A stretch of DNA of 36,919 bases from a virus. Below the pieces are notes generated by a model. The model ran no database searches. It was not told where the DNA came from and saw only the letters and a program-made list of their open reading frames with translations. The stretch lies in IMG/VR virus record IMGVR_UViG_3300030117_005618, positions 1-36,919 of that record; one strand, given 5' to 3'. Made by a program: the position numbers and the translations under genes. Positions 12,399 through 35,367 of this stretch are shown piece by piece (positions within the stretch are counted from its first letter, which is position 1; every line of letters starts with the position of its first letter).

Positions 12399-15300
12399 AT
12401 GCCGGAAATTAAAAGAACATTTACAGCCGGTAAAATGAATAAAGATCTCGATGAGAGATTAGTTCAAAACGGTGAATACAGAGACGCATTAAATATTAAA
12501 GTTAGAACCACTGATGGTGACTCTAGTGGTATAGGTAATGCTGGAGTTGTGCAAAATATTAAAGGTACTGACTTTATTGGAGAGGCGTATAAAGTTGAAG
12601 AATATAAAGTAGATGACGTGGTAAATGCTTTATCTACTAAATTTGTTGGATCTGTGTCTGACGAAAAAAATGATAAAGCTTATTTTTTTGCTGCAGCGCC
12701 TTTGGGTGAAGACGGGTTTGATAGCATATTACATACGCACATAATGACTAAACAGGTTACTAACGAGCAAGCAGCTTTGTTTGAGTTTAATAATCCTGAT
12801 GTAATAGAAGAATTAGATACACTCACCTTTTCTCCTAATACCCTTGAAGAGCATGCTAGTGTAATGGACCCTGTTTTAAAGCACTGGGTAGACAGTATTA
12901 TAGAGGTTGATGCATTAACTGAAACAAGTAGGCCTATATTTGTTGATAAATTTGGTGTTACTGGAAGATGGGTTGACGTTATAAAGTCTGGTGAAGAAAA
13001 TATACCTAATTCTAATTTTTCTCAATTAGAGGTAACCGACGGTGCTGCTTTTAGAATTGGCATGATTGTATATTTATATAACAATGATGGTGACCATCTT
13101 TTATTTGGAGAAAATAATGAGTTTGGAGTTGAAATATTAGACATCCAAGAAAATACTTTGATTTTAGCTACAGAGCAAAGTATAGATCTATATAACGAGT
13201 GGCAAGCTGGTAATATAAATTGGAAAAGTGCTTTTAAATTTATTTACCCAGAAAGAGTACTTGAGTTTGATTATAACAAGTTAATACCAAATATTAATAT
13301 ACTTGATAATTTATTGTTTTACACAGATGGTATTAATGAGCCTAAAAAAATAAATATTACTAGAGCGTTAAAAGGTACAATAATTCCAAAACTTGGCCCT
13401 GACTCTGATATGTCAATAGTTCAATCTGCACAAAGTTATTTAGAAAATCCAAAACACACTAAGCTTTTTGTTAATAATACTACAACTGATGCTTTACCTG
13501 AATTTGTAGATGTTGCTGAGTTAGAATGGAGTTTAAGTAATTCTGACATAAAAAAAGAACATATCACTGTTATTAGAAAGGCGCCTATATCTCCACCTAC
13601 TTTATTTATGAATGATACCGCAAGGCAATCAGATGTGAACTTTAGTGTCGAAGGTATTGATTTTTTTAACGCTGAAGATCCAGCAGAATTTGGAGATACA
13701 GTTGTAATAACTAATCAAACTATTTTAAACTCTGACATTAGAGTAAATGATGTATTAAGATTTTCTAACGCTGAAAACACAATTGAGCCTGTTGTTATAA
13801 CTGGTAGAGTAATAGACATAAGTGAAACTCAAGTTACAATAAAACTATTATTTGTTGGTGAAGACTTAGAAGCTCAAGACCCTTCTAATTGGGAAGTTAG
13901 GTTAGAACAAGATAAACCTTTATTTGAAACTAAATTTGGTAGAGTGGGTTATAGATATCAGTATGATGATAATGAATATTCTAGTTTTTCACCTTGGTCT
14001 GAACTAGCTTTTTTACCTGGCACGTTTTCTTACACGCCTAAAAATGGACATAATGAAGGAATGTCAAACACAGTTAGAGAGTTAATAATAAGAGATTTTA
14101 TACCAGATGATTCTATAAGACCTAGTGATGTTAAAAAAGTAGATATACTATGGAAAACAACTGATGATCAAAATGTTTATATAGTAAAAAGTATTACTAG
14201 AGCTAGAGACAAAGAGTGGGACGTGCAAGATAATGAAACTACAGGTTACATGACTTTAACATCTGAAATGATACATAGAGTTTTGTCATCTAAACAGCTA
14301 TTAAGAAATTGGGATAATGTTCCTAAAACCGCTATAACACAGGAAATAACGGCTAGTAGATTAGTTTTTGGTAACTATACTCAAGGTTACGACATAAATA
14401 GAGTAGTAAGTTTAAAGCAAGCTATACTATCAGAAACGGTAAGTTTTCCAGAACCTAAAAAATCAATTAAATCTATTAGAAGTTATAAGTTTGGCGTAGT
14501 TTTTGGAGACAAGTATGGTAGAGAAACCCCTGTAATAGCTCAAGGTTATAAAACTAATGATAACCAAACTGCTACTGGTGAAGTTAGCGTTGATAAAAGC
14601 TTAGCACATCTTAGTAACAAATTTAAAATAACTCAAGATTGGGAAAGTTCACCTGAAAATTGGATGGAGTACGCTAAGTATTACGTTAAAGAAACATCTA
14701 ATGAGTATTATAACTTAATACTAGATAGATGGTACAATGCTGGAGACGGTACTTTGTGGCTTTCTTTTCCATCAGTAGATAGAAATAAGGTAGACGAAGA
14801 AACGTACTTAATATTAAAAAATGAACATGGTAATCAAAATCCAGTTAGTGAAAAGGCTAGATATAAAATATTAGCAATAGAAAACGAAGCGCCAGATTAT
14901 ATAAAAACAGATTATAGAAAAATGGCTAAAGTACCACTAGATAATATAGGTGTATACGGCCCAACTGAAACAACTAGTACTGGTGTTCCAACCGGTATAT
15001 TAGGTACGTTAGAAATAAGAACTAATTTAGAGCTTTGGAACGATATACCAATTAATATTACAAGTTTTAAAGGAACACCGCGAGTTAGGATAGTTGGGGA
15101 ACTAGTATCTAATGAAAACATAAGAGCTGAGGGCCCTTGGAGAACAGTATCAAGAATACATGCGCCCGAAAATTCTGATAGGTATGGTTGTGATATAAGT
15201 GAAGCATTTACAGCTACAGATGTAAATATGGCTAGTTTATTAAGCATTCAAGATCCAACAATAGTAGCTGCTGATGTTGAATTAGGTGAAAGTTCAGCAA

Positions 15301-18300
15301 TACAGTATTATATGGAGTTTAGAGATGAGGTTGTTGAAAACAAGCCTGAATTTGATGGAAGGTTTTTTGTTAAGATAAATAAAGATGATATGTTAGCGGA
15401 AAAAATATTAAACTTAAGTACTAACACATCTTATAACACGATAAAAACATATGACATTGCTTATATAGCAGCTAAATCAATTAGCCCAGCTGACGTAATA
15501 CAATCAACAGCTGGTTATACAAACGTAAACGATCCTGTTTTTCCTACTTACGCTGGCTGGACTAGTAGCACTATAGAAGGAACTGTTGCGGCAGATGAGC
15601 TTAATGAAGACTTTCAACCACAGAATAATAACGAAGGTTTAATACCATCATTTGGGCCTGGTAATAGTAATTTAACAGAAAACTTCTGGTTAAATTGGTA
15701 CAATGATGATGATGGTGGACAAAATACTAAAATATTTATAGATGAAGCGCCTGCTTATTCGCATTTTGACTTTTCACAAACTAATGACGAAGAAGGTCAA
15801 ATAGATGGTACTTTAACGTTTAACATGGCAAATCCTAACGCCGCGTATAATGATTACGTTGTACCTGTTAGTATTCTTAGATCACCATCTACGCAATACG
15901 CTAGAAGTACTTGGAGTGAAAATGAATTAGCTGGATGGTTTCCTCCATTTGAAGCTCCTAATGGATTAATAAGAAACTGGCATCCAGCTGGGCTAAATCA
16001 AGGCGCTGCCCCATCTGGGCAAATGGGTGAAATTACATTTTCCACAATTGGTTTTCAGGAAGGATTTGGTAATGGTATAGAAGGTAGTTTTAAAACAGAC
16101 ATGCAGACTGTTGGCACACACTTTAGATTTGTAGATGATCCATTTCCTAATGTTTATAAAATAATACCAATGCAACTTGACTACACTGAAGCTCAAGGTT
16201 ACTCAGGTTTAGTAGATATTTCTAGTAAAAACTATAATAGTGATAACGCTCTTAGTAAAAGGCATAGTATAGTTACTAGATTTGTTAGATTAGATCCAGA
16301 AACTGGTTCTGAAATGTATGTTGGTGATAGCCCATTAGGTATAGACACTTTTAACTGGGATCCAAGAGGTTTAGTAAAGCATAATGGTATAGGTAGTTTT
16401 AAAATAGAAATAATAGAGCCAGCTGGTGACGGAGGTTTAGTTAATGATGCTATAGTTGAAAATAAAGCTTGTTGGGAAACTGAACCTAAAAAAGATTTAG
16501 ACATAGATATATATTATGAAGCTAGTGGCGCTATACCAATGAATTTAAATAATAAAGCTAATTTAATAGTTTTTACAAAACCTAATAGAAAACCGGTTTT
16601 AGCTAGTAATGTGAAAGTTTTGCCTAGAAAATTAACTTCGAACATAGAAAGTGTTAACATAGACTCTTCAGCGTGGGTTTGGCAATGTATAGGTAATGAT
16701 GCTATAGCAATAGCAGAAGGAACAGAATCTTTTCCAACAGAGTTAATAACAGATGTTCAAAATGTTGATACAGCTGTAGGTATAGCTATAAATGATTTAA
16801 TTACGTTTACACATCCAAATGGTCTTGTTACTCAATCTAAAGTTTTAAATCATTTAAAAGCATTAGATGTAACAGATAATGGTGAGTACGACACGGCAGT
16901 TTTATCTGATAGAGTTACATCGGGTAACACAAGTTTTTCTTTAGGACAATCAACTTTTACACCATTTGGCGTGGTAATAGAAAATATAAATGTTGGAGAC
17001 GAGGTTATAGGAAATGGTGTAGAGCAAGGTACTTTTGTTACAGGGGTAAACCCTATATCTTTTCCAGCTGAAGGTTTTCCTGGAACAGTTAGTATTAATA
17101 AATCTTTTATATCATCACAAGAAAACGTTAGCCTTACATTTATAAACGTAACAGGGTGGTATAAAATAGATACCTCTGTTTGGCAGTACCCAGTAGAATT
17201 AGCTTGGTTTAATTGTTACTCTTTTGGTAACGCTGTAGAATCTGATAGAATTAGAGATGATTTTAATGCTCCAACTATAGACAATGGTATTAAAGTTTCT
17301 TCTATATTTTTAGATTATAAAGAAGAAAAAATTAAAAGCGGTTTAATACACTCTTCTGAATTATACAACGCTGTTTCAAGCGTTAATGGCTTGAATGAGT
17401 TTAGTATGGCTGAAAAAATTACTAAAAATATTAACCCTATATATGGCTCAATACAAGCGTTAAAAACTAGAGACACTGATTTAGTTACTTTTTGTGAAGA
17501 TAAAGTTTTAAAAGTTTTAGCTAATAAAGATGCTGTTTTTAATGCTGATGGAAACGCTCAACTAACAGCTACTAATAAAGTACTTGGTCAAACAGTTCCT
17601 TTTGCTGGAGATTATGGTATATCTAAAAATCCTGAATCACTATCGTCTGATCAATACAGACTTTATTTTACTGACAAGCAAAGGGGTGCTGTACTTAGGC
17701 TATCAATGGATGGGTTAACACCTATATCTAACGTTGGTATGAAAAGTTGGTTTAGAGAAAATTTAGTAGACTGTAAAAATATAATAGGTACTTTTGATTG
17801 GGAAAATGGAGAATATAATGTTACTTTAGATTATACTGAAGTTTCGCAAAAATCACCAATAACAGTATCATTTAATGAAGGTTCTAAAGGCTGGGTTAGT
17901 TTTAAATCTTTTATACCTAATTGTGGTACTTCAGTTAGTGGAAAGTATTTAACGTCCCCTAGTAATACTCATGATGCAATCGGTCCAAATGTTACTTATA
18001 AAGTTTTTAAACATAACTCTAGCGAAATAAGAAATAGGTTTTATGATGATAATAACTTTAAATCTGAAATTGAAATAACTTTTAACGATTTACCGGATGT
18101 TGTAAAGTCATTTAAAGCTATGAATTATGAAGGCACTCAAGGTAAAGTATTAGAATCAACTAATCTAACAACACCAACTTTCCCAGATGCTTTAGGAAAT
18201 TTTGTGTCAACAGATGATAATGAGTTTTACAATTTATCAGAAAAATTAGGTTGGTTTGTTCAATCATTTAACACAGATATTAATTCAGGTACAGTACCAG

Positions 18301-18794
18301 AATTTAGAAAAAAAGAAGGAAAGTGGTTTAACAGAATATTTGGCAGTGAAACAAGTTTTATACCTGATGGAGAGGAAATATTTGTACAAGGTATAGGATT
18401 TCCTGTTCTTATAGGTGAAACGCCATCGTCTGACACTGAAACCCAAACAGAGGCTGATTTAGAAATAGAAGCACAAACTTTAGAATTAAATAATTCTAGT
18501 GTTGTTTATACTATATTATTTGACCCATTGTTTGAAACTTATGCCATACAAATAAATTCCGTTAATAACATAACAAGTACCAGTGAATTTTTAGAAATTT
18601 ATAACTTTGAACTTGAGCAAAACTTACAAGATGGTAGTGATTTAATACCTATTAGCACAAACGATCCGTTTACATCAAATCTAACAGTTGGATATTATCC
18701 AATGACAGTGACCGAAATTAACGATCCTAATAATTCTATTCAATTTTTAATTATTATAAGTGCGAATGTAAATTATGACAATATAAATTCTTAA
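12399..18794 (+). CDS. Very large tail protein, muzzle/stabilisation type
   Basis: At 2131 residues this is the second largest protein here. The N terminus (residues 4-60: KRTFTAGKMNKDLDERLV, then NGEYRDALNIKVRTTDGDSS) is a recognisable opening of large tail-stabilisation proteins of crAss-like and marine phages. Residues about 510-610 carry the conserved YQYDDNEYSSFSPWSE block and the VKKVDILWKTTDD strand. The C-terminal third has GTFDWENGEYNVTLDY, then VVKSFKAMNYEG, then FRKKEGKWFNRIFG. The rest is beta-rich with few cysteines. It should form the distal part of a short tail. Residues about 1521-1582 hold a VGDEVIGNGV module shared with the next gene. No enzyme motif was found. Confidence 0.75.
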   Translation: MPEIKRTFTAGKMNKDLDERLVQNGEYRDALNIKVRTTDGDSSGIGNAGVVQNIKGTDFIGEAYKVEEYKVDDVVNALSTKFVGSVSDEKNDKAYFFAAAPLGEDGFDSILHTHIMTKQVTNEQAALFEFNNPDVIEELDTLTFSPNTLEEHASVMDPVLKHWVDSIIEVDALTETSRPIFVDKFGVTGRWVDVIKSGEENIPNSNFSQLEVTDGAAFRIGMIVYLYNNDGDHLLFGENNEFGVEILDIQENTLILATEQSIDLYNEWQAGNINWKSAFKFIYPERVLEFDYNKLIPNINILDNLLFYTDGINEPKKINITRALKGTIIPKLGPDSDMSIVQSAQSYLENPKHTKLFVNNTTTDALPEFVDVAELEWSLSNSDIKKEHITVIRKAPISPPTLFMNDTARQSDVNFSVEGIDFFNAEDPAEFGDTVVITNQTILNSDIRVNDVLRFSNAENTIEPVVITGRVIDISETQVTIKLLFVGEDLEAQDPSNWEVRLEQDKPLFETKFGRVGYRYQYDDNEYSSFSPWSELAFLPGTFSYTPKNGHNEGMSNTVRELIIRDFIPDDSIRPSDVKKVDILWKTTDDQNVYIVKSITRARDKEWDVQDNETTGYMTLTSEMIHRVLSSKQLLRNWDNVPKTAITQEITASRLVFGNYTQGYDINRVVSLKQAILSETVSFPEPKKSIKSIRSYKFGVVFGDKYGRETPVIAQGYKTNDNQTATGEVSVDKSLAHLSNKFKITQDWESSPENWMEYAKYYVKETSNEYYNLILDRWYNAGDGTLWLSFPSVDRNKVDEETYLILKNEHGNQNPVSEKARYKILAIENEAPDYIKTDYRKMAKVPLDNIGVYGPTETTSTGVPTGILGTLEIRTNLELWNDIPINITSFKGTPRVRIVGELVSNENIRAEGPWRTVSRIHAPENSDRYGCDISEAFTATDVNMASLLSIQDPTIVAADVELGESSAIQYYMEFRDEVVENKPEFDGRFFVKINKDDMLAEKILNLSTNTSYNTIKTYDIAYIAAKSISPADVIQSTAGYTNVNDPVFPTYAGWTSSTIEGTVAADELNEDFQPQNNNEGLIPSFGPGNSNLTENFWLNWYNDDDGGQNTKIFIDEAPAYSHFDFSQTNDEEGQIDGTLTFNMANPNAAYNDYVVPVSILRSPSTQYARSTWSENELAGWFPPFEAPNGLIRNWHPAGLNQGAAPSGQMGEITFSTIGFQEGFGNGIEGSFKTDMQTVGTHFRFVDDPFPNVYKIIPMQLDYTEAQGYSGLVDISSKNYNSDNALSKRHSIVTRFVRLDPETGSEMYVGDSPLGIDTFNWDPRGLVKHNGIGSFKIEIIEPAGDGGLVNDAIVENKACWETEPKKDLDIDIYYEASGAIPMNLNNKANLIVFTKPNRKPVLASNVKVLPRKLTSNIESVNIDSSAWVWQCIGNDAIAIAEGTESFPTELITDVQNVDTAVGIAINDLITFTHPNGLVTQSKVLNHLKALDVTDNGEYDTAVLSDRVTSGNTSFSLGQSTFTPFGVVIENINVGDEVIGNGVEQGTFVTGVNPISFPAEGFPGTVSINKSFISSQENVSLTFINVTGWYKIDTSVWQYPVELAWFNCYSFGNAVESDRIRDDFNAPTIDNGIKVSSIFLDYKEEKIKSGLIHSSELYNAVSSVNGLNEFSMAEKITKNINPIYGSIQALKTRDTDLVTFCEDKVLKVLANKDAVFNADGNAQLTATNKVLGQTVPFAGDYGISKNPESLSSDQYRLYFTDKQRGAVLRLSMDGLTPISNVGMKSWFRENLVDCKNIIGTFDWENGEYNVTLDYTEVSQKSPITVSFNEGSKGWVSFKSFIPNCGTSVSGKYLTSPSNTHDAIGPNVTYKVFKHNSSEIRNRFYDDNNFKSEIEITFNDLPDVVKSFKAMNYEGTQGKVLESTNLTTPTFPDALGNFVSTDDNEFYNLSEKLGWFVQSFNTDINSGTVPEFRKKEGKWFNRIFGSETSFIPDGEEIFVQGIGFPVLIGETPSSDTETQTEADLEIEAQTLELNNSSVVYTILFDPLFETYAIQINSVNNITSTSEFLEIYNFELEQNLQDGSDLIPISTNDPFTSNLTVGYYPMTVTEINDPNNSIQFLIIISANVNYDNINS

Positions 18795-22962: not shown

Positions 22963-25900
22963 ATGAGTAAACAATATAGGCTATCTGACGGTAGAGTCAT
23001 GAACGTGTTTCCAGAAACGGAAAACGCATTTAATTTTTCTTTAAAACAAAGTGGTTTAACAGCTGAGTTAATATCTCAAGGTAGCGAAATAAAAGACCCT
23101 ACTTTACAAAATGTTAATACACCTAAAATCGATGATTCACTAAGTGAAGAAGAAAAAAAAGATAACGAGGTTAATTCTATTAAAGAGTATCTTTTTTCAA
23201 AATTTCCTATCCAAGCTTTAATCGAGCAAAAAATCAAACAAGACAAAGAAGATAATAAAATAAATAAAGATTTATTTAATCTTAAATCAATGCCTAAAAT
23301 AAATTTAAAAAACTTAGAAAAATTTAAAAAAAGAAATGAGTTGTTAAAAGAAGGCGTATCATTAGAAGAAATAGATTTGCATTTTTCAACAAATAAATAT
23401 GATGCTTACAAAGAAGAGTTTGGAGATAAATACAGTGTTGATTGGTGGAGACGCTCAATGATGGAAAATTGGGGAGTTGATTTTAGTAAAGATAAACCAC
23501 CTAAAGGTCTTTTACAAGATTATTTAAGTGGTCAAGAAATACAATCGTTGGTGTTTCCTGAAAAAAATAAAGATTTTCAATTAATTATTGGTCCAAACGG
23601 TGAATTTGGTTTTGATGAGGTTTCTTATTTAGACCCTCATGGTAAAAATAAAATATACAAACACGAAGGGAGATTAAAAATAGCTGATAAAGAATACGAC
23701 AGTACAGAAGGTGTTAAATTAAATGAAAAGACTGTTGATGAAATTAAAGGATATGTAGATCCATTAGACAAAGGTCAAGTTGAACAATGGCCTAGTATGT
23801 CAGAAGAAGAATTCAAAAAGTGGGATTTAAAACCTGTTGATAATTACGAACTTTATAAAACTAACTATGTTGGAAAAGACATGCACATATTACCACACTT
23901 AGTAGATAGTGGCCGTGGTGATTTTATAAGTGTATCTCCATCTGGTGATTCATATCCTTTGTATAAAGATGCATTTCTTCGGCCTGGTTTACTAAAGGAT
24001 AAATACGAATTAGCAGATGGTAGTTTTGGAACTTATTTTGATTACAAAAAAGAAAATCAAAAACAAATTGACTTTATAAATAGTAAGTATTCTTCATCTA
24101 TTTACAAAGCTAAGTATATTTTCAATAATTGGTCTATGGCCAAAAAATTAGGCCCAATTAAAGAAATAAAACCACTACCTTCATCAATAGACGATTATAC
24201 TCAATTAGATACTGATTCATTAATAACAAATGAATTAGCTAAATTTCATGAACAATTTTATTATAATCCTTTAGAAAGTCAAACTAATTTTATAGACAGT
24301 TACCTAAAACAAAATTTATTAACAAGGGATTTGTTAATGGAAAACATGTCAAGGGAAATGTTTAAATGGGAGTGGGGAGTAGACTCAGATGCTAATTTTT
24401 CCTCAAAAGGCGTACAAATGCAAGTGTTTAACCATTTAGTTGACATTAATTATAGAATAAGTGGGTATAGAGGAGTAGTAGTTCAAGACAAAGAAAATGA
24501 AGATAAAAAATTAGAAATACTTAATGAAACATTTAATAGTCTTTTTTCTGATTTTGCTAAAAATAGAAACGCTAGTGAAAATATATCATATGGAGAATTT
24601 TTAAATTTATACCCAATAAGTAAAGACAAAAAAATTCCATATTTTTATAGTAAACTTGAGGAAACAAGTTTAGGTTTTAAAGAAGTTTGGGCAGAGGCTA
24701 GTATAAACGTAAACACATACGGTAATTATACAACGGCGGATAATAGAACACTTGAGTTATATAAAAATTTAAATGTTAACTATCGCGATAAAAATGAAGT
24801 AGATGCTTTTGAACAATTTACTAAATTAGAATTTGTAGTAAATACTATAAAAAAGGCTGATGAAATAAAAAATACTTCAACTGGTGATTGGTGGGAAGGT
24901 CTTAGTCCAGCTCAAATAGTTTACAAACATAATAATTTTGAAAAAAATGCAGAAGATCGTCAGGTGCTTATGGATCAGTATGGTGGTTACGCTGGTAATA
25001 ATCAAGATATAGATAGACCTTCTTTGGAGGAAGCATTTAAAGCTTCAAATGAAAGATACAGAAATTTAATTTCAAATTATGAAATACAGTCAGAGCAAGC
25101 CATGACCACTCTTTATGAGAGTTTTATGAGTAGCCCTGAATATATAGATCTTCAAAAAAAATTATTTCAAAAACATCAACCTCAAATAGACGAAAAATTT
25201 GAATTTGAAATAAATATTTTAAATAGTAAGTTTGAAAAAGAACAAGACAAAATTTTAAATAAATACTCTGAAATAGCCGCTAATCTTCCTAATATTAATT
25301 TTCAAACTGAATATTTTAAAACTGCTGCTGAAAATAAAAACAAAGAGGCTTTTGCAAAAATTGAAAAAGATTATAATAATGAAATAAACATTTTATATGA
25401 AAATACGTTTGGCGCAATAAATGAAGATAAGTTACAATATTTTGAAGAATTAATTCAAAACGAGCCTGAGTTAATAGAAATGCAAAATAATTGGCAAAAT
25501 ATTGCTGAAGAAAAAAACAAAGAACTTTTTCAAGATTATTTATCAGCTTATAATAATGGTTACGTTAAGTTTACAATAGATGAATTAGAAAAACTTGGTA
25601 ACGCTTTAGATCAAATGGGTTTTTCTGACGATTTATTTGAAGGTGGTGTAAGAGTTGAGGACAAACTTGCTATGTTAGATTCTGTTTTAGAATCAACTTT
25701 AAGTAAAATCAAAGAAGAAGATCCTAATGCTTTTAACAATCCTCAAGATTTAGAAAAGTATATTAATGAATTTTATGGTTATTTTTATAGCGAACTAACA
25801 ACGCAGTATGAAGGTTTTGATAATGAAGCTGATGAAGGGCCAGGAACCACGTTATTTTATCAAAAAGTTTTTGCAGAAGATATAATTGAAGAAGTTGAAA

Positions 25901-28900
25901 GATCTGGTGAACATAGGTTTATTTGGGACGAAGCTTTAGATGGTTACCAAACTAGAGGTGTATTTCTTTATACTCCAAAGGCTTATAACCACATAGGTAA
26001 AATGCCGGCCAATAAAAAAACCGATCAAGGTCTAGATATTAACATGGACGACTATGAAGATAAAGGTTATGGAATGGGTTATTACCACAAAGAATTTGTT
26101 ACAACTCAATATTACTACGTTCCTGCTATTCAAAAAAAATACGGAACTGTACCTATAGATGAAAACGGTAGAGGTTCTAGGTACTTTGAGCCTAATGCTT
26201 CTCAACCTGGTTTAATATCAATGTCTTCTCATGCTTACCCTGGTTTTAATGAAAGTGCGGATTTTACGTATAATGAAGATTACGAGTATACTCCAACGTT
26301 AGATGCTATAGTACAGGATATTGTTAAAAATGGTTATAAACGTGCAGGTGTACATTTTCCAGCTGGAGCTAATCCGTATGATGAGAAATATCGTTTTCAT
26401 TTAGAGCAAGCTGTTGGAGAAATAATGTATAACAAAGTTAACAAAACAAGGCATTTAGCGCTTAAAAACGCTAAAGATGTTTTTGATAGCCCCGAGTCAA
26501 TAAAAGATATAGGTAAACATCCTTTTTGGAAAGGGTTTTTTAGCATGAAAAGTTATGAATATATACCTTGGATCGGTAGCTTAGTTAACGCCTATGATGG
26601 TAAAATAGTACAAGAATTAGTTTCTAAAAAATCAGAAGATCCTAATTACGTGTATACGCCTACTGAAGAAATGTTATTAAGCATGGTTTCTATAAAACAA
26701 ACTAATGACTCTTTTGTGTCGTCGTTATCTCCTAGTTACAACTCTGGTAGATCAATGGCTAATTCTTTAGTATTTATGGGCGAAATGATAGGCTCAAGCC
26801 CAATATTTGTAGGAGTTAGAAGTTTGTTGAAAACGCAATTAAAGAAAAATTTAGTAAAAAATCTAAAAGACGTTACAGTAAAAAACGGTAAAATACAACT
26901 TGGTGGAGGCTTAACTTTACCAACTAATTTTAAAATAGCCGATAAGTTTATAGACACATTTGCTTTTGGTGGCGGTGTTGTTATGCAATCAAGTATTGGT
27001 GGTGGCGCTCGTACTGCAGATCAGTTTTTTAAATTTATAACACCAGAATATACTTGGGCTTTTGCTACAGATAACGATGGTTTAATAGAAAAAATTACAG
27101 CTTATACAGTTTTTGATGAAGAAGGTAAAGCACTTGGTTTAACAAACGAAGGGGATTCATATAGTAAAGCTTTTTTTAAAGCATCGGGTTTAACTTTAAG
27201 TGAGTATAGTGTAGAAAAGTTTGGATATTATTTATCTAAGATGCCTAGAGGTTTTTTAAATGCTTTCCCTGGCAAAAAGAATTTAGGTGATAAATTATTT
27301 GATAGCGAGTTCATGAAAAGAGCAACCCTAGGTCATCTTATAAGAAAATATCCTAGACTTAGACCACCTGGTGAATTAATAAAATATGCTCAAAAAGCAG
27401 GTGGATTTAATGGTATTATACCTGAGGTCATGGAAGAGATAATTCAAATGCCTATTAGTGGTTTAATAACCGGTGATCCACTGTGGCAAGGTCTAAGAAA
27501 GTATGACCAATTTGGAAACGACGTTGGTTGGGATTATAATAGCATGTTTGAAATCGGATATTCTATAGGACACATGCAAGCAATTTTTGGTACTAGCGGT
27601 CTTGTTGTAAATACAGTTAGAGGTAATAACGCTCCTTATTACGAAATAAGTACTAACGGTAGAACACCTCTTAGATTTAACACAAAAAAAGAATTAGACA
27701 AATACATAAAAAAATTAGAGGACCAAGGGTTTTTTGAAGGCGAAAATACTATAAATGTAAAAACTTACAACGATTTTAACGCGGCAGATCAATACAAAAA
27801 AGATTTTGAAATTGCAAAAATAACGGCTAAAGAACTTGATGGTATAAATTTTAGTTTTAATGTTACCGCCGATGGTAGAAATAAAAGTAAAATTGGAGAT
27901 AAATATGTTGCTACAGAATTAGATATTTTAAGTGTAGATGAAAAAGATGGTGGTTTAGATGAAGAAGGTAGAAGCAATCTTGTTGGTATAAATGATAGAT
28001 TAGGCGTTTTAAACGAAAAAGGCATTTTAAATTCTAACGAAATAAAAGAAAAAGAAAATTTAGAAAAAGAAAAAATTAGTTTAATAGGCGCTATAAAACA
28101 AAAAATAGATCAAAGAAAAACTAAAAGAAGATACAAAGAGCAGATTAAAAATGTTAAAAAAATAATTAAAAAGAATAATTTAGATAGAAAATTAGACATT
28201 GTAGAGGCCGATACTGATTTAGAAACAGAAAATGAATTATTAAAACTATTTGGTATAACAAAAAATAAAGAAGGGCAATATTTAGATAGTGATGGCAATG
28301 TAGTTACTGAAATAGCTGGAGAAAATATTGGAGAATTTTTTAGTAATTTAAAAACTACACATGGTTACTACATACCTAGTTCTTTATTAGCTGATGGTGA
28401 AAAAAGTAAAATTATAATAAATAAAACAGCTTCTTTTAAAAATAGAGGAGAAAATGTTGCTGGTCACGAGTTTTATCACTTTTTTCTTGACAACGTTTTA
28501 TCAACAAACCCAGAAACTAAAATAGCGTTAGGAGAGTCTTTTAAGTCTTATTTAATGTCTATAGACAGTAAAGGAATACAAGATAGTAATTTTAGAGAAA
28601 GATTAAATGCTTATAAAAATGCAGATTTAGCAACACAAAGTGAAGAAGCTATGGCATTGTTTTTAGATGCTATATCAAGTGGCGCTATGGAATATAAGGA
28701 AACTACGTTTACTAAAATTGGACAAATAATAAGACATTTATTTAAAAGATTAGGTTTAGATATAACTCTTGATAGCGGCAAAGACGTGTATAACTTTATT
28801 AAAGATTTTAATCATAGTATTAATAATGGTGAATTTTCTAATGAACAAATTAATGCTTTAGAAAAGAAAATTAAAGTAGGTGACAATATAAGAAAAATAG

Positions 28901-31900
28901 CAAATGAAGTAAAAATTGCTCAAGAAAAACAAAAAGAAATTAATATTGAAAGTTCTAAAGAGCAGATAAAACAAGCTATGCTTAGAGCTGGTATAAAGCC
29001 AAATGAAACTGAAATAGACAAATTATTTAAAGAAATTAATAAACTTAATGACGAAAATAAAATAAAAAAATCTGAAGCTGGTGGCTATATATTTAACATA
29101 AAAGTAAACACTGCAGATATAGTTCGTAAAAATGAAGAAATAAACCAAAAAATTATTGATAACGCTAAAAAAATATTTAGTGGAAAGTGGAAAGAAAATT
29201 TAAGTAATTTTACAGAAAAACCAGTTACTGATTATAATGGCAATTTAGTTACACCTACCGTTGGGCAAACTGGTACTCAAGTTGATTTAAAGTTTTTAGA
29301 AAAATTTCCAGAGTTTAAAAACAAGATCATGAAAATTGGTGATCGTTTTGAAGAAGGTTTTTTAGTTGACAGAACTGGAAAAAGAGTAGAAATTTTAACA
29401 AAAAAATATAACGATTCTGTAACAGATAGACTAAGAAATGAGTTAGTTGAAAATAATTTACCACTTGCTTATGATTTAGCTAAAAATGATTTTGAGATTG
29501 AAAAAAATAAAACAAGAAGTTCTGATGAAACTAGGCCTACTGAAACAGCTGTTACCTTAGAAGATTTTCAAGCAGAGTACGTATATGAATTATCAGAAAT
29601 GGCTAGAAGATGGGATCCTAGTAAAGGAGTTCCATTTGGTGCTTTTATAAACGATAAAAGAACCGGTTTACCTATTAAGCAAGGACAAATTTTACGTAGA
29701 TTAGGTTTGGGAGGTCCGCTAACAATGTCTCTTTCTAGTTTTGAAAAGAAAGGTGTTGATCCTACTAATGTAAACACTACAACTAGTGGTAAACAAGTTG
29801 TAGATCTTGTTGAGGGTGATTTTATTAAAGACAGGTTTAAATTCAAGCAATCAACTAATACAGATATAAACGACGTATTAAGTAACGTTAACTACAATCT
29901 TAAAAAACCTAATGGTGAAAATAAAATGTACGAAGACGTTAAAACTGAACTAACGTCTCAAGTAAACGAAGGAGTTAAATCTAAAAACAAGGTTGAGCCA
30001 ACTGGTGAGTTATTTTCTATTTTTGAAACTATTTCTAAAGGAGAATTTGGCGTATCACCACAAGCTATAATGGCAAAACCTCAAAATTTAACAGTGCCAG
30101 AATCATTATCTGCTAGAACAAAGATAGCAGAAGGCGTTAAAGAATTAGGCCCAAAAGGATATTTGCAGTCAATACTACCTGAAACTAACTATAACCCACA
30201 AACTTTTAAATCATTAAAAATACGAAACAGTATATTAAAAGCTTTTTATAAACAAGCTTTAAATGAAAAAGGTAAAGAAATAAGAGTTGATAATATAAAA
30301 GGTAAAGTATTAAATTTAGAAGCAATGTCAGACACTGATATTTTGTCTAATTTAGGACTAGTGCAATCAACTGATAGTAAGGGTAATGTTAACATAGAAC
30401 CTATGCCTCATCAGAAAAAATTTGATGGAGTAATTAAAGGTGTTATAATGGAAACAGCTACTGTTGCAACTAATCAACCTATTAGACAGTTAGCTGGAGA
30501 TCAAGGTGCTGTAATAGGTAGAGGTAAACCTAAAATAATGTTTAGTAGAGTTGTTTCTAACAAAGCTAAGGATTCTAAAACTATAGATACTTATTACGGT
30601 AATAGAACAGCTTTAGTACAAGCTATAGATGAAGCAGGTGACTTTAGTCCCGCAGGTATAAGAAAAGCTTATGACAAAGTGTTTACTAATAAAAACATAA
30701 AAATATTAGATTCTAATAATAAAAATTTAAAACAACCTATAGTAAACGAGGTATACAGATTATTAAAACCGTTTTATACTATAAGAAAACAAGACTATAA
30801 GCAGGATTCTGATTTCATGGGCATCGAAGAATACGTTATGTTAACAGACTTAGACGCTCAACCTGATGTTGTTGTTTCTGATTTTATGAAATTAACAAAA
30901 CCTGTTTCTAAATATTTTCAAGATAAGAAACAGTTAGAAAAATATAGAGGATTTTTAAATACTATACAAATAAAACTTGTTGAAAAATATGAAAGACAAG
31001 GTTTGTCAGAAATGGAAGCAAGAGAAAAGGCAGCGGTTGACGCTTATAGATTTAAATCTTTTATGGAAAATGGAACAAGAGCTGGTAATAGAGGTATGGC
31101 TTTTTATAAAAAAAATGATTTTACAAAAAATATTATTGCTAATATTTTACCTGGTGCAAGTACTTACAAAACATTAGTAAAAAAAGAAAATGGTGTAAAA
31201 GTTAAAAATTTATTAATAATTAATAGTAAAGGAGATGTTATAAACACAATACCTATAAACAAAGATTTTAAGCAGGAGGTCACTAAAGACATGGTTAATA
31301 ACAACTTAAGTAGCACTGAAATACAACAACGAGAACAAGCCGCGCAAGAACATTGGGATTATTTAAATAATATTATGAGTACAGCCGTAAAGGTTATTAA
31401 AAATACTGATAATAGCTATAGTAATATAGAGATTGCTATGCTAAGCTCTGGGTTTTTAGGTAATATGAAAACTTCTTTACGTGCGAGTGCTGTGTTAAAA
31501 TATTTACCTTATAATTTAAATATAAAAAATCCTAAAAGCTTTGTATACGAACATGGTATTCCAGCGAAAGTTGTTATGCTTCATTTAATTGACCATCATT
31601 TATATGGTAATAAAATTAATTTAAAAAAATTAAAAGACAGTTACTCCGTCGGTGTTATTAGTTTAAAAATGAACGATAATTTTGGCCGTATATTTAAAGA
31701 TAAAATGCACTTGGGTTATGCTATAGGAGATCAACCTACTAAAAGATGGTACAATACTTTTACTGGAAAAGGTAATTTACATGCAGTTATAGATACTGAT
31801 GGTAATATTCATGGACAGCAGTTTGTAAAACTATCTAATATTGCGGCACAAAATATTAGCGATATTAAACTAAACGAAAGTGTAGAAACTTCTAATAGAA

Positions 31901-34900
31901 AAAAAATTAAATATAGTAAAACAGGTAAGTCAGTAGGTATGTCAACGTATGATTTTGACGACACACTAGGCTTTACTAAATCGGGTGTTAGAGTAACAAT
32001 GCCTAATCCTAGTGGAAAGCCTAAACCAAAACGTAAAGTTATATTTTTAGCTGGTGGAGCTGGTAGCGGTAAAGGTAACGTTATTAATAAATTAGGTTTA
32101 GAAAAACAAGGATTTAAAATAGTTAATCAAGACATATCATTAGAGTGGTTAAAGAAAAATCACGGTTTACCTGAAAACATGAATGATTTAACTAAAGAAC
32201 AAAGAAGCACGTTAGGTAAGTTAGGTCATCAAGCTAGAGGTATAGCTAGAAGAAAAATGATGAAATATCAAGGAGAAGGTAATGGGGTTATTGTAGATGG
32301 TACCGGTGGTTCTGTAAAACAAATGCAAAATCTTGTAAAAGAGTTTAAATCTAAAGGGTATGATGTTAGTATGTTATTTGTAGATACTTCATTAGATGTA
32401 GCCTTAGGACGTAATAGAGCTAGAAAAGAAAGATCATTATTAGACTCTATAGTTAAACGTAATCACGAGGCTGTACAAAGTAATAAACCAACATTTAAAA
32501 ATTTATTTGGCAATAGATTTATGGAGATTAATACAGATAAGTTGACGCAAGAAAGCCCTATGCCTAAAAAGCTAACAAATAAAGTAAATGACTTTGTTTC
32601 TGGTTACGAAAAAATTAGATTAGATGCTACTGAATTCGCGGAACGAGGATCGGAAATATTAGAACAAGGTGGTAAATTTGATTTTTCAGAATTTAATGAT
32701 GTTGTTGATGGTAAACCTGGCCCATTACTCGATAAGGCTAAAAAAAGAGCCGCTAAGTTTGGTACAAAAGACATGTTTGTTTTAACGGCTAGACCTCAAG
32801 CTTCAGCTAAAGCTATACATGAATTTTTAAAGTCGCAAGGTTTAAATATACCATTAAAAAATATAACAGGTTTAGCTAACAGTAGCGGTCAAGCTAAAGC
32901 TCAATGGATGTTAGATAAATTTGCAGAAGGATATAATGATATGTATTTCGTAGATGACGCACTACAAAACGTCGAGGCTGTTAAAGAAGTTTTAAATCAA
33001 TTAGATATTAAATCTAAAGTAGTTCAAGCTAAAATTAAATTTAGTAAAACGGCTAGTAAAACTTTTAATGAAATATTAGAGCGTAGAACAGGCGTTGGTG
33101 CTGAAAACGTTTTTTCATCTGCAGAAGCTAGAAAAAGAGGTTCTCAGTTTAAAATAGATAGATTTATAAAAAGTCTTTACATACCACCTTCAGCTGAAGA
33201 CTTTAAAGGTTTATTATATCATTTTATTGGTAAAGGTAAACAAGGTGAAGCTGATATGATATTTTTTGGAGAAAATTTATTAAAGCCTTTTGCTAAAGGA
33301 ATAAGAGCTTGGAATACTTATAAGCAAAACATGATAAATGATTTTCATAAATTAAATAAAGAATTTCCAAATGTTAAAAAAAATATAAATAAAAAAGTAC
33401 CTGGAACAAGCTTTACTAATGATACGGCTATAAGAGTTTATTTATGGGATAAAGCGGGTTTTGATATACCTGGAATATCTAAAACTTTACAAAAAAAATT
33501 AGTTAATCACGTAAATAAAAATGAAGAGCTAAAAGCTTTTGCAGAAGGATTATCTGTTATAACAAAAAGAAAAACTGGTTATACTAAACCTAGTGAAAAT
33601 TGGATGGTAGAAAGTATACCAACTGATTTAAGAAATGTTGTAGATAAAATAGGTAGAAAAGAGTTTTTAGAAGAATGGGTTAATAACAAGGATATTATAT
33701 TTTCAAAAGATAATATGAATAAAATAAGAGCTTTATATGGCGATTCTTTTGTAGAAGCTTTAGAAAATATATTGTATCGTATGGAAAATGGTACTAACAG
33801 AATATTTGGGGATAGTAGATCTTTAAATTGGTTTACTGATTGGATTAATGGTTCTATTGGTGCTATTATGTTTTTTAATACAAGATCAGCGTTACTTCAA
33901 ACTATATCTACTGTTAACTTTATAAATTGGTCAGACAATAATATGTTTAAAGCATCTGCTGCTTTTGCTAATCAAAAACAATTTTGGAAAGATTTTGTAA
34001 TGCTTTTTAATTCTGATCAATTAAAGCAAAGAAGAAAGGGTTTGCAAGTAGATGTATCATCTGCTGAGTTAACAAAGTCTTTTAAAGAAAGAGGCTTTAG
34101 CCCAGTAACGGTTGTTAGTTATTTACTACAAAAAGGATTTTTACCTACACAAATAGCGGATAGTTTTGCTATTGCTTTTGGTGGTGCTTCTTTTTACAGA
34201 AACAGATATAACAAGTACTTAAAACAAGGAATGTCTCCTATTAAGGCTAAAAATCAAGCTATGTTAGATTTTCAAGAAATAGCTGAAGAAACCCAACAGT
34301 CATCAAGAGAGGATTTAATATCTCAACAACAAGCAAGTCCTCTTGGTCGTATAGTACTAGCTTTTCAAAACGTTACAATGCAGTATGGTAGATTAACAAA
34401 AAAAGCGCTATCAGATATAATTAATAATAGAGGTGATATGAAAACTAATATATCTAAAGTGATATATTATGGCGCCGTTCAAAACGTTGTATTTGCAGCA
34501 TTACAAAGCGCTCTTGCATTTTTAATTTGGGGCGATGAAGAAGAAGAATTAATTAAAGATAAAACAACAAGAATGTTTAATACTTGTCTTGATTCTTTTT
34601 TACGTGGAACAGGTCTTTATGGAGCTTTAGCTTCTACTCTTAAAAACACTATAATACAATGGGATGTTCAAAAAGATAAATCTTTTGGTAAAGAACGTAT
34701 TGAAAAAATAGCTTTAGAGTTAATTAATTTATCACCACCAATAGGTAGTAAAGTTAGAAAAGTTGTAAAAGCTTATTATGCCGATTCATGGAACGAAGAT
34801 TTATCTAATGAGTTAGGTTGGAAACTAGAAAATCCTAAATTAACTATGGCGGCAAATCTTATAGAGGCTAGTTTTAACATACCTTTAGCCAGATTGTTAA

Positions 34901-35367
34901 ACAAAGCAAATAACTTAGAAGAAGCTATAACAGGTAATCACGAAATGTGGAAAAGAATAGCATTGTTTTCAGGTTGGAGCGCGTGGGAACTTGGTATTGA
35001 AGACGAAGACATTGTTGAGGCAGAAGAAAGTATTAAAGATAAAAAAGAACAAGAAAAGAAAAAAGAAAAAGAAGAAAAAGAAAAATTAAAAGAAGAAGAA
35101 AAGAAAAAAGAAGAAGAAGAAAAGAAAGAAAAAGGTATTAAAACGGTTAGATGTTCTGGTATTAGATCAAACGGTGAAAGATGTAATATGAAAACTGAAA
35201 CAGCAGAAAAAACCTGGTTGTGTGTACACCATATGGAATTTACAGATGGCATGGATAGAGATGGTGATGGAATTAAAGAATATAGATGTACGGCTATTAA
35301 GTCTAATGGTAAAAGATGTAACAACAAAACAGAGAATAAAAATAAAAAATGTTATGCTCACCAATAA
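22963..35367 (+). CDS. Giant multi-domain virion-internal protein
   Basis: The 4134-residue protein is one uninterrupted frame. In order: an N-terminal YRLSDGRVMNVF motif; helical and coiled-coil regions (about 713-895); hydrophobic helices (about 1190-1560); an HEFYH metallopeptidase-like domain (1815-1965); a sigma region-2-like helix set (2150-2236); a HAD phosphatase with an inserted P-loop kinase (2993-3356). A long helical domain follows, with FFNTRSALLQTIS near 3634 and RIVLAFQNVTMQYGRLTKK near 3796, then an amphipathic segment (VIYYGAVQNVVFAALQSALA), a Lys/Glu helix (4025-4057) and two Cys/His repeats (4064-4134). Position after two internal proteins and the conserved late blocks suggest an ejected protein, analogous to T7 gp16 or the giant cargo of crAss-like phages. 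There is no signal peptide. Functions of the domains are inferred from motifs. Confidence 0.8.
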   Translation: MSKQYRLSDGRVMNVFPETENAFNFSLKQSGLTAELISQGSEIKDPTLQNVNTPKIDDSLSEEEKKDNEVNSIKEYLFSKFPIQALIEQKIKQDKEDNKINKDLFNLKSMPKINLKNLEKFKKRNELLKEGVSLEEIDLHFSTNKYDAYKEEFGDKYSVDWWRRSMMENWGVDFSKDKPPKGLLQDYLSGQEIQSLVFPEKNKDFQLIIGPNGEFGFDEVSYLDPHGKNKIYKHEGRLKIADKEYDSTEGVKLNEKTVDEIKGYVDPLDKGQVEQWPSMSEEEFKKWDLKPVDNYELYKTNYVGKDMHILPHLVDSGRGDFISVSPSGDSYPLYKDAFLRPGLLKDKYELADGSFGTYFDYKKENQKQIDFINSKYSSSIYKAKYIFNNWSMAKKLGPIKEIKPLPSSIDDYTQLDTDSLITNELAKFHEQFYYNPLESQTNFIDSYLKQNLLTRDLLMENMSREMFKWEWGVDSDANFSSKGVQMQVFNHLVDINYRISGYRGVVVQDKENEDKKLEILNETFNSLFSDFAKNRNASENISYGEFLNLYPISKDKKIPYFYSKLEETSLGFKEVWAEASINVNTYGNYTTADNRTLELYKNLNVNYRDKNEVDAFEQFTKLEFVVNTIKKADEIKNTSTGDWWEGLSPAQIVYKHNNFEKNAEDRQVLMDQYGGYAGNNQDIDRPSLEEAFKASNERYRNLISNYEIQSEQAMTTLYESFMSSPEYIDLQKKLFQKHQPQIDEKFEFEINILNSKFEKEQDKILNKYSEIAANLPNINFQTEYFKTAAENKNKEAFAKIEKDYNNEINILYENTFGAINEDKLQYFEELIQNEPELIEMQNNWQNIAEEKNKELFQDYLSAYNNGYVKFTIDELEKLGNALDQMGFSDDLFEGGVRVEDKLAMLDSVLESTLSKIKEEDPNAFNNPQDLEKYINEFYGYFYSELTTQYEGFDNEADEGPGTTLFYQKVFAEDIIEEVERSGEHRFIWDEALDGYQTRGVFLYTPKAYNHIGKMPANKKTDQGLDINMDDYEDKGYGMGYYHKEFVTTQYYYVPAIQKKYGTVPIDENGRGSRYFEPNASQPGLISMSSHAYPGFNESADFTYNEDYEYTPTLDAIVQDIVKNGYKRAGVHFPAGANPYDEKYRFHLEQAVGEIMYNKVNKTRHLALKNAKDVFDSPESIKDIGKHPFWKGFFSMKSYEYIPWIGSLVNAYDGKIVQELVSKKSEDPNYVYTPTEEMLLSMVSIKQTNDSFVSSLSPSYNSGRSMANSLVFMGEMIGSSPIFVGVRSLLKTQLKKNLVKNLKDVTVKNGKIQLGGGLTLPTNFKIADKFIDTFAFGGGVVMQSSIGGGARTADQFFKFITPEYTWAFATDNDGLIEKITAYTVFDEEGKALGLTNEGDSYSKAFFKASGLTLSEYSVEKFGYYLSKMPRGFLNAFPGKKNLGDKLFDSEFMKRATLGHLIRKYPRLRPPGELIKYAQKAGGFNGIIPEVMEEIIQMPISGLITGDPLWQGLRKYDQFGNDVGWDYNSMFEIGYSIGHMQAIFGTSGLVVNTVRGNNAPYYEISTNGRTPLRFNTKKELDKYIKKLEDQGFFEGENTINVKTYNDFNAADQYKKDFEIAKITAKELDGINFSFNVTADGRNKSKIGDKYVATELDILSVDEKDGGLDEEGRSNLVGINDRLGVLNEKGILNSNEIKEKENLEKEKISLIGAIKQKIDQRKTKRRYKEQIKNVKKIIKKNNLDRKLDIVEADTDLETENELLKLFGITKNKEGQYLDSDGNVVTEIAGENIGEFFSNLKTTHGYYIPSSLLADGEKSKIIINKTASFKNRGENVAGHEFYHFFLDNVLSTNPETKIALGESFKSYLMSIDSKGIQDSNFRERLNAYKNADLATQSEEAMALFLDAISSGAMEYKETTFTKIGQIIRHLFKRLGLDITLDSGKDVYNFIKDFNHSINNGEFSNEQINALEKKIKVGDNIRKIANEVKIAQEKQKEINIESSKEQIKQAMLRAGIKPNETEIDKLFKEINKLNDENKIKKSEAGGYIFNIKVNTADIVRKNEEINQKIIDNAKKIFSGKWKENLSNFTEKPVTDYNGNLVTPTVGQTGTQVDLKFLEKFPEFKNKIMKIGDRFEEGFLVDRTGKRVEILTKKYNDSVTDRLRNELVENNLPLAYDLAKNDFEIEKNKTRSSDETRPTETAVTLEDFQAEYVYELSEMARRWDPSKGVPFGAFINDKRTGLPIKQGQILRRLGLGGPLTMSLSSFEKKGVDPTNVNTTTSGKQVVDLVEGDFIKDRFKFKQSTNTDINDVLSNVNYNLKKPNGENKMYEDVKTELTSQVNEGVKSKNKVEPTGELFSIFETISKGEFGVSPQAIMAKPQNLTVPESLSARTKIAEGVKELGPKGYLQSILPETNYNPQTFKSLKIRNSILKAFYKQALNEKGKEIRVDNIKGKVLNLEAMSDTDILSNLGLVQSTDSKGNVNIEPMPHQKKFDGVIKGVIMETATVATNQPIRQLAGDQGAVIGRGKPKIMFSRVVSNKAKDSKTIDTYYGNRTALVQAIDEAGDFSPAGIRKAYDKVFTNKNIKILDSNNKNLKQPIVNEVYRLLKPFYTIRKQDYKQDSDFMGIEEYVMLTDLDAQPDVVVSDFMKLTKPVSKYFQDKKQLEKYRGFLNTIQIKLVEKYERQGLSEMEAREKAAVDAYRFKSFMENGTRAGNRGMAFYKKNDFTKNIIANILPGASTYKTLVKKENGVKVKNLLIINSKGDVINTIPINKDFKQEVTKDMVNNNLSSTEIQQREQAAQEHWDYLNNIMSTAVKVIKNTDNSYSNIEIAMLSSGFLGNMKTSLRASAVLKYLPYNLNIKNPKSFVYEHGIPAKVVMLHLIDHHLYGNKINLKKLKDSYSVGVISLKMNDNFGRIFKDKMHLGYAIGDQPTKRWYNTFTGKGNLHAVIDTDGNIHGQQFVKLSNIAAQNISDIKLNESVETSNRKKIKYSKTGKSVGMSTYDFDDTLGFTKSGVRVTMPNPSGKPKPKRKVIFLAGGAGSGKGNVINKLGLEKQGFKIVNQDISLEWLKKNHGLPENMNDLTKEQRSTLGKLGHQARGIARRKMMKYQGEGNGVIVDGTGGSVKQMQNLVKEFKSKGYDVSMLFVDTSLDVALGRNRARKERSLLDSIVKRNHEAVQSNKPTFKNLFGNRFMEINTDKLTQESPMPKKLTNKVNDFVSGYEKIRLDATEFAERGSEILEQGGKFDFSEFNDVVDGKPGPLLDKAKKRAAKFGTKDMFVLTARPQASAKAIHEFLKSQGLNIPLKNITGLANSSGQAKAQWMLDKFAEGYNDMYFVDDALQNVEAVKEVLNQLDIKSKVVQAKIKFSKTASKTFNEILERRTGVGAENVFSSAEARKRGSQFKIDRFIKSLYIPPSAEDFKGLLYHFIGKGKQGEADMIFFGENLLKPFAKGIRAWNTYKQNMINDFHKLNKEFPNVKKNINKKVPGTSFTNDTAIRVYLWDKAGFDIPGISKTLQKKLVNHVNKNEELKAFAEGLSVITKRKTGYTKPSENWMVESIPTDLRNVVDKIGRKEFLEEWVNNKDIIFSKDNMNKIRALYGDSFVEALENILYRMENGTNRIFGDSRSLNWFTDWINGSIGAIMFFNTRSALLQTISTVNFINWSDNNMFKASAAFANQKQFWKDFVMLFNSDQLKQRRKGLQVDVSSAELTKSFKERGFSPVTVVSYLLQKGFLPTQIADSFAIAFGGASFYRNRYNKYLKQGMSPIKAKNQAMLDFQEIAEETQQSSREDLISQQQASPLGRIVLAFQNVTMQYGRLTKKALSDIINNRGDMKTNISKVIYYGAVQNVVFAALQSALAFLIWGDEEEELIKDKTTRMFNTCLDSFLRGTGLYGALASTLKNTIIQWDVQKDKSFGKERIEKIALELINLSPPIGSKVRKVVKAYYADSWNEDLSNELGWKLENPKLTMAANLIEASFNIPLARLLNKANNLEEAITGNHEMWKRIALFSGWSAWELGIEDEDIVEAEESIKDKKEQEKKKEKEEKEKLKEEEKKKEEEEKKEKGIKTVRCSGIRSNGERCNMKTETAEKTWLCVHHMEFTDGMDRDGDGIKEYRCTAIKSNGKRCNNKTENKNKKCYAHQ
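28405..28857 (+). other. Metallopeptidase-like domain within the giant protein
   Basis: Residues about 1815-1965 of the giant protein contain GHEFYHFF, an HExxH zinc signature with H1835, E1836 and H1839. A downstream helix, SEEAMALFLDA, offers E1894 or E1895 as third zinc ligand, as in gluzincins. A further conserved-looking run, IGQIIRHLFKRLGLDI then KDVYNFIKDF, follows. Such peptidase domains occur in large phage 'polyvalent' proteins. Likely targets are the giant chain itself, host proteins or cell-wall-associated proteins. The substrate cannot be read from sequence. Confidence 0.65.
29410..29670 (+). other. Sigma-70 region 2-like segment within the giant protein
   Basis: Residues about 2150-2236 show a helix ending NLPLAYDLAKN, a charged linker, then LEDFQAEYVYELSEMARRWD and PSKGVPFGAFI. 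This order and spacing recall sigma-70 region 2: a helix like 'NLRLVxxIAKxY', then 'EDLxQEGxxGLxxAxxxFDPxxGxxFxTYA'. The W-D-P-S-K-G and F-G-A-F positions align well. Regions 3 and 4 are not evident. The match is by eye and could be convergent helical sequence. Confidence 0.4.
30532..30549 (+). other. Interdomain motif KIMFSR, copy 1
   Basis: Residues 2524-2529 of the giant protein read KIMFSR. This is the first of three copies of K-I-[MK]-[FY]-S-[KR]. It follows a Gly-rich segment (GRGKPK) that looks like a linker and marks the start of a new helical region. Confidence 0.4.
31903..31923 (+). other. Interdomain motif KIKYSKT, copy 2
   Basis: Residues 2981-2987 read KIKYSKT, ten residues before the HAD catalytic motif, so the motif sits at the N-terminal border of the kinase-phosphatase unit. 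Confidence 0.45.
31939..33030 (+). other. Nested HAD phosphatase and P-loop kinase (PNKP-like) within the giant protein
   Basis: Residues 2993-3356. HAD motif I is YDFDDTL (D2997 nucleophile, D2999 acid/base). Motifs II-IV come only after about 270 residues: LTARP (T3275), K3312 in SGQAKAQW, and YFVDDA (D3331, D3332). Between them lies a kinase: VIFLAGGAGSGKGN (P-loop, K3037), VIVDGTGGS (D3112), an Arg-rich lid (RNRARKERS, 3150-3158) and RNHEAV. Kinases of this type phosphorylate polynucleotide 5' ends, nucleotides or, in zeta toxins, UDP sugars. Pairing with a HAD phosphatase points to nucleic-acid end healing as in T4 Pnkp. The activity is inferred. Confidence 0.7.
33031..33051 (+). other. 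Interdomain motif KIKFSKT, copy 3
   Basis: Residues 3357-3363 read KIKFSKT, directly after the last strand of the HAD domain (SKVVQA). With copy 2 it brackets the kinase-phosphatase unit exactly. Confidence 0.45.
35035..35133 (+). other. Lys/Glu-rich single-helix linker in the giant protein
   Basis: Residues about 4025-4057 consist almost only of Lys and Glu, an i,i+4 salt-bridge pattern typical of a stable single alpha-helix. It separates the helical body from the C-terminal zinc repeats and probably acts as a rigid spacer. Confidence 0.6.
35152..35364 (+). repeat. Tandem C-C-C-H zinc-knuckle-like repeats at the C terminus of the giant protein
   Basis: Two copies lie in residues 4064-4134. 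The first has C4064-x9-C4074-x12-C4087-x2-H4090. The second has C4109-x9-C4119-x10-C4130-x2-H4133. Both share the core I-(R/K)-S-N-G-(E/K)-R-C-N. Short Cys/His modules of this shape occur alone or at termini of phage and bacterial proteins and are presumed zinc-binding. An acidic Asp-rich linker (DGMDRDGDGIKE) joins them. Nucleic-acid binding is possible but not shown. Confidence 0.65.

Follow-up and report, generated by a model that had tools for sequence, protein, structure and literature searches.

A P-loop kinase nested within a HAD phosphatase in a giant late protein of an uncultured phage: a candidate PNKP-like enzyme of unusual topology

The DNA analyzed here, a 36.9-kb virus record from IMG/VR that we call the window, is a fragment with 31% G+C. 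Its genes run in the order GroES, TerL, portal, structural genes, a giant tail protein, smaller genes, and a giant gene that ends the late block, and this block is syntenic with those of phi38:1, elemoA, and MW202828. The window terminase is 65% identical to that of a Manatee Spring podovirus and about 45% identical to those of Flavobacterium "elemo" phages; the remaining records that match it are mostly from Cellulophaga phages. Judged by these sequence comparisons, the source is an uncultured phage akin to marine Bacteroidota phages. Window positions 12399 to 18794 encode a 2131-aa virion protein with a match to the crassvirus muzzle C-terminal domain that falls below threshold (E 1.7e-4). 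A PADLOC search gave no match. The giant gene (22963 to 35367) is a single, intact ORF of 4134 aa with no interruption, and the elements of the following list all lie within it.

22963..35367, + strand: giant late-gene protein that hosts the module, 4134 aa; a single ORF and the final gene of the late block
31930..32019, + strand: HAD part 1, with the first Rossmann strand, motif I (D2997/D2999/T3001), and the first cap-hairpin strand (residues 3009 to 3014); assigned from sequence, invariance, and model strands E5-10 and E22-27
32020..32604, + strand: inserted P-loop kinase, residues 3020 to 3214, with GGAGSGKG (K3037), D3057, DGTG (D3112), and lid residues R3150/R3154/R3157; assigned from Pfam, VIA-align, and hhalign to T4 PseT
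32605..33048, + strand: HAD part 2, with the second cap strand (residues 3215 to 3220), FDFSEF, T3275-A-R3277, K3312, and D3331-D3332; assigned from invariance and hhalign
33052..35100, + strand: conserved C-terminal block after the HAD, without a known domain; about 45 to 75% identity to relatives

Residues 2988 to 3362 of the giant protein make up a single HAD phosphatase into which an entire P-loop kinase is set. An earlier note on this DNA had proposed such a split HAD with a complete kinase inside it, and its motif placements all hold within the one ORF: YDFDDTL is at residues 2996 to 3002 (nt 31948 to 31968), GGAGSGKG at residues 3031 to 3038 (from nt 32053), VIVDGTGG begins at residue 3109 (nt 32287), LTARP at residue 3274 (nt 32782), and YFVDDA at residue 3328 (nt 32944), and the lysine is K3312. 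The distance from motif I to motif II, which that note put at about 270 residues, is 278. The split itself is borne out by Pfam kinase matches above curated cut-offs, by invariant catalytic residues, and by the existence of uninterrupted HAD relatives.

HAD motifs I to IV are all present, and D2997, D2999, T3001, T3275, R3277, K3312, D3331, and D3332 are invariant in 44 nested sequences, which are tblastn matches 56 to 87% identical to the window, taken without a motif filter. In the same 44 sequences, the invariant kinase columns include G3031, G3034, G3036, K3037, D3057, D3112, T3114, R3150, R3154, and R3157, and the segment as a whole retains 56 to 87% identity in 43 relatives. The module is the best-conserved stretch of the giant protein (mostly 70 to 94% identity to close relatives), and its conservation starts abruptly, since residues from about 2000 to 2950, directly upstream, are mostly 10 to 40% identical. 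Values of dN/dS are about 0.07 to 0.35 across the module (ten comparisons, the top values coming from a short 30-residue N-terminal piece) and 0.06 to 0.24 for the kinase and the C-terminal HAD part taken separately, which indicates purifying selection. We therefore reject chance motifs or an assembly artifact as an explanation, given this selection and the recurrence of the nested form, which many metagenomes supply in about 53 distinct sequences, and the invariance of the catalytic residues in the 44 sequences likewise disposes of a decayed enzyme. That the nested architecture is real is close to certain, and both enzymes are, as far as their sequences tell, very probably active.

A tblastn-confirmed scan of viral contigs yielded 225 relatives, of which 80 were kept, and further scans added more. 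We call a relative nested if HAD motif I is followed by the kinase and then by motifs II to IV, and HAD-only if motifs I and II are about 80 residues apart; in a third, tandem form, found in three contigs (L053, L054, and L089), the HAD is followed by the kinase. With duplicates removed, there are about 53 nested, 58 HAD-only, and 3 tandem distinct relatives. All 114 classified relatives sit in large open frames of at least 1159 codons; the classification was filtered on catalytic motifs, which makes its count of 114 of 114 with those motifs intact partly circular. This series of nested, HAD-only, and tandem forms is the strongest evidence that the kinase is an insertion. A kinase of this kind was found elsewhere in none of 20 HAD-only contigs, which may be incomplete, while the positive control was 5 of 5. 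With the HAD free of a kinase in 58 distinct relatives and none of these 20 contigs carrying one elsewhere, the kinase appears to be dispensable.

In a quick tree of the HAD, the nested group is explained by three changes, of which well-supported branches impose just one; the tandem HADs fall within the main HAD-only clade. In the kinase tree, the tandem kinases group among the nested kinases. From these positions, a kinase of the nested type was attached behind a HAD that had none, and because the tandem form thus unites a nested-type kinase with a HAD of the kinase-free clade, the pairing arose more than once. Both quick trees are unrooted, and gains and losses of the kinase look alike on them. 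We conclude from these comparisons that the kinase is optional and has become linked to this HAD on more than one occasion. A HAD-only query gave no match among cultured phages. HAD-only forms also occur on two MAG contigs labeled Sphingobacteriales and Maricaulis, which are perhaps misbinned phage.

The insertion site can be located by comparing the window with the HAD-only relative L057. After motif I, L057 reads TKSDVLFTAPDGTKGKLNATEFAKRG, and the window reads TKSGVRVTMPNPSG, then the kinase, and then EKIRLDATEFAERG. In an AlphaFold2 model of the window segment (pLDDT 88.5, pTM 0.74, from a shallow, 44-row alignment), strands at segment positions 22 to 27 and 228 to 233 flank the kinase. 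In the L057 model (pLDDT 84.9), the strands are at positions 18 to 22 and 28 to 32, with a five-residue turn between them. Based on this comparison of the strands, the models place the kinase as a replacement for the turn of the two-strand HAD cap hairpin. The idea that the kinase takes the place of the HAD cap, as the earlier note had it, is abandoned: both cap strands and the FDFSEF region are retained, so that by sequence and models the C1 cap is still there and the kinase lies in its hairpin turn. The same note held that its proposal would fall if the two HAD parts failed to form one Rossmann fold. In the model the two parts do assemble: the order of elements matches that of the uninterrupted HAD of L057, which itself matches HAD structures in VIA-align, and HAD part 2 aligns with uninterrupted-HAD relatives over 150 columns at 66% identity (hhalign, E 2.7e-74).

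Sequence comparisons of the kinase point to several families. Pfam matches AAA_33 (E 1.6e-10) and Zeta_toxin (E 3.3e-9), both above curated cut-offs; the Zeta_toxin profile scores 36.9 bits against a cut-off of 22.3, and AAA_33 scores higher. When a kinase profile is compared with PDB sequences, zeta toxin (1.1e-5) and adenylate kinase (2e-5) precede T4 Pnk (3e-4), and for this reason sequence fails to settle the family. The structural ranking puts the Clostridium thermocellum Pnkp kinase first in both Foldseek and VIA-align (Z 17.6, 2.8 Å, 167 residues, model residues 33 to 227), and VIA-align gives lower Z values for PSTK (16.2, the next family), T4 Pnk (14.6), zeta toxin (14.5), and adenylate kinase (14.3). 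An hhalign comparison with T4 PseT (95.5%, E 1.5e-8) aligns K15 with K3037, D35 with D3057, R122 with R3150, and R126 with R3154. In T4 Pnk, D35 is the general base and R38 binds the acceptor 3'-phosphate. The kinase thus has a Walker A motif, an Asp aligned to the T4 general base, and the lid Arg expected of a PNKP kinase. The acceptor arginine is absent at its expected position, where T4 R38 aligns with L3060; a substitute residue is possible, and a polynucleotide acceptor is for this reason not assured.

The HAD of L057 also ranks highest against PNKP enzymes. Its VIA-align Z values are 10.1 for the T4 Pnkp 3'-phosphatase, 9.7 for Pnkp1, and 9.4 for T4 Pnkp, with other HADs at 8.7 or less, which is a modest margin. 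Foldseek of the same model against the PDB gave nothing with an E value below 0.001, and by sequence the HAD has only motif I in common with T4. The likeness of the HAD model to PNKP phosphatase is a lead, not proof. Structure prediction followed by a PDB search, the check that the earlier note had proposed, thus leads from the kinase to the C. thermocellum Pnkp kinase and from the HAD-only relative, by that modest margin, to the T4 Pnkp 3'-phosphatase; PNKP-like folds of the two domains are supported by the models but not proven. The end-to-end domain layout of PNKP enzymes is found only in L053, L054, and L089, the kinase of the window being nested in the cap hairpin.

Because the kinase and HAD halves lead independently to PNKP enzymes, we favor, as the best single reading and at somewhat less than an even chance, a bifunctional PNKP-like kinase-phosphatase that would heal nucleic acid ends. 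The missing acceptor arginine and the half of the family that manages with no kinase count against it. The HAD (nucleophile D2997, acid/base D2999, K3312, and Mg bound via D3331/D3332) would strip 3'-phosphates, the kinase (K3037, D3057, and lid R3150/R3154) would add a phosphate to 5'-OH ends, and the healed ends would then be sealed by a ligase such as the small ATP-dependent DNA ligase of most longer related contigs. If the giant protein is packaged and carried into the cell alongside the genome, it could protect incoming DNA or tRNA in the first minutes of infection. In this scheme we infer the substrate, the coupling to a ligase, and delivery by the virion. The small ATP-dependent DNA ligase (PF01068) is present in 11 of the 15 longer related contigs, in a different gene block from the giant gene, and none was found among the genes examined in the window, which is a fragment. 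DNA ligases are common in phages, and the presence of this one is therefore only consistent with end healing. Matches to PF09414 were discarded as separate ligases, since they are the same small ligases and are better matched by PF01068. The profile of T4-type RNA ligase (PF09511) gave no match, and its control was equally silent. On related contig L110 (2-436), a deoxyribonucleotidase-like HAD protein (MRIYIDMDGVITDF) lies near the small DNA ligase.

The same observations can be read in other ways. The two domains may be unrelated activities in one polypeptide, a constant small-substrate HAD and a kinase whose presence in the cap hairpin is tolerated, a product of mosaic evolution with no coupling. 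Roughly one in two distinct relatives has the HAD without the kinase, none of 20 such contigs encodes one elsewhere, and kinase relatives stand alone in the T4-like phages HTVC008M and Melnitz and are fused differently in Atu_ph07, all of which fits this explanation. We nevertheless consider it unlikely, since in a separate clade a similar kinase has again been joined behind the HAD and each half, taken by itself, resembles PNKP enzymes. Around these kinase relatives, we note that the one in HTVC008M (L084 1209-3615) adjoins a cytidylyltransferase-like protein and lies near a DUF6267 protein whose KWDG motif resembles that of ligases/nucleotidyltransferases, and that gp053 of Agrobacterium phage Atu_ph07 (L086 1721-4057) has, besides the kinase relative, a large N-terminal region that is ADP-ribosyltransferase-like by eye.

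It is less probable still that the module acts on free nucleotides, alarmones, or second messengers, either to counter a nucleotide-based host defense or to adjust the nucleotide pool. Many HADs are nucleotidases, and the kinase has adenylate-kinase-like sequence matches; injected phage proteins with nucleotide-targeting domains are also described in PMC5512222 and PMC7824862. In structure, however, the Pnkp kinase scores about 3 Z units above adenylate kinases, and in the lid the RNxxR pattern lines up with T4 Pnk. The explanation to which we give least weight, as quite improbable, is that a zeta-toxin-like kinase acts on a UDP-sugar and weakens the cell wall, the HAD being a phosphatase that is either separate or regulatory. 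Among PDB sequences the kinase matches zeta toxin best, the Pfam Zeta_toxin match is above its cut-off, and Iyer et al. (2017; PMC5512222) propose a cell-wall role for zeta-like kinases of polyvalent proteins, but the C. thermocellum Pnkp kinase is again about 3 units higher (Z 17.6 versus 14.5).

Compared with known end-healing enzymes, the nested form differs chiefly in topology. T4 Pnkp (PseT) likewise has a 5'-kinase-like P-loop domain and a HAD phosphatase in one chain, is the top structural match of the HAD, and has counterparts here of K15, D35, R122, and R126, but it is a stand-alone protein of 301 aa with the kinase and then the phosphatase end to end, whereas here the kinase is inside the HAD and R38 is not conserved. 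Mammalian PNKP also combines a HAD and a PNK kinase in one chain, in the same HAD-then-kinase order as the three tandem relatives; it is not nested, and its FHA domain is absent here. C. thermocellum Pnkp has the kinase domain that is the top structural match of the inserted kinase, but its phosphatase belongs to a different superfamily, being a metallophosphoesterase (PDB entry name; PMC4411300), and it has a ligase domain of its own. The stand-alone kinase of Pelagibacter phage HTVC008M (AGE60463) is one of the nearest named relatives that the inserted kinase has (37 to 39% identity) but has 220 aa and no surrounding HAD. A survey of jumbo phages describes PNK-HAD enzymes with an N-terminal kinase (PMC7824862), and the literature searched, with incomplete coverage, yielded no description of a kinase nested in a HAD. 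On our best reading, what is new is a PNKP-like enzyme of unusual topology, with the kinase inside the phosphatase. All the end-healing enzymes that we know of join the kinase and phosphatase end to end. The nested, kinase-free, and kinase-behind relatives offer a natural series on the insertion of a whole enzyme with both staying active. A broader proposal, which we regard as on the doubtful side, is that the cap hairpin functions as an insertion point through which a phage lineage has both gained and lost a 5'-kinase and that the nested PNKP is carried in the virion to heal ends of DNA or tRNA early.

Packaging of the giant protein is proposed from gene order, which the window has in common with phages where the gene closing the late block is annotated as a structural protein: the counterpart in this slot carries that annotation in the podoviruses Cellulophaga phi38:1 and Flavobacterium elemoA. 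Giant polyvalent phage proteins encoded near virion genes, with proposed injection and mention of zeta-like kinases, appear in Iyer et al. (2017; PMC5512222). They resemble the window protein in being giant, multidomain, late-gene-coded, and furnished with enzymatic domains (here an HExxH motif at residue 1835), and the searched passages contain no HAD phosphatase or nested kinase-phosphatase. The very large size of the window protein (4134 aa) and its position ending the late block beside virion genes are those of a polyvalent protein, and it is probably polyvalent and virion-borne. If it is packaged, the module could act early in infection as a repair enzyme that counters host nucleases or tRNA-cutting defenses. 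No other function is known for the giant proteins of this group of phages, and an assayable domain gives a handle on them.

Between the giant protein and its giant late counterparts in MW202828, elemoA, and phi38:1, neither BLASTP nor a profile of the C-terminal block detected homology, and we dropped that relationship; only an HExxH motif is shared, with MW202828 and elemoA. The C-terminal block itself (33052 to 35100) has no Pfam match. The HExxH motif of the window protein, HEFYH, is at window positions 28465 to 28479 (residues 1835 to 1839), in a weak match to Peptidase_M1 (E 0.012) that suggests a metallopeptidase domain. Window positions 29410 to 29742 (residues from about 2150 to 2260) resemble sigma-70 region 2, with LVENNLPLAYDLAKNDFE ... 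YVYELSEMARRWDPSKGVPFGAFIN, a stretch for which Pfam gave no match. At the extreme C terminus, window positions 35152 to 35361 (residues 4064 to 4133) encode two C-C-C-H repeats, which are possible small zinc-binding or DNA-binding fingers.
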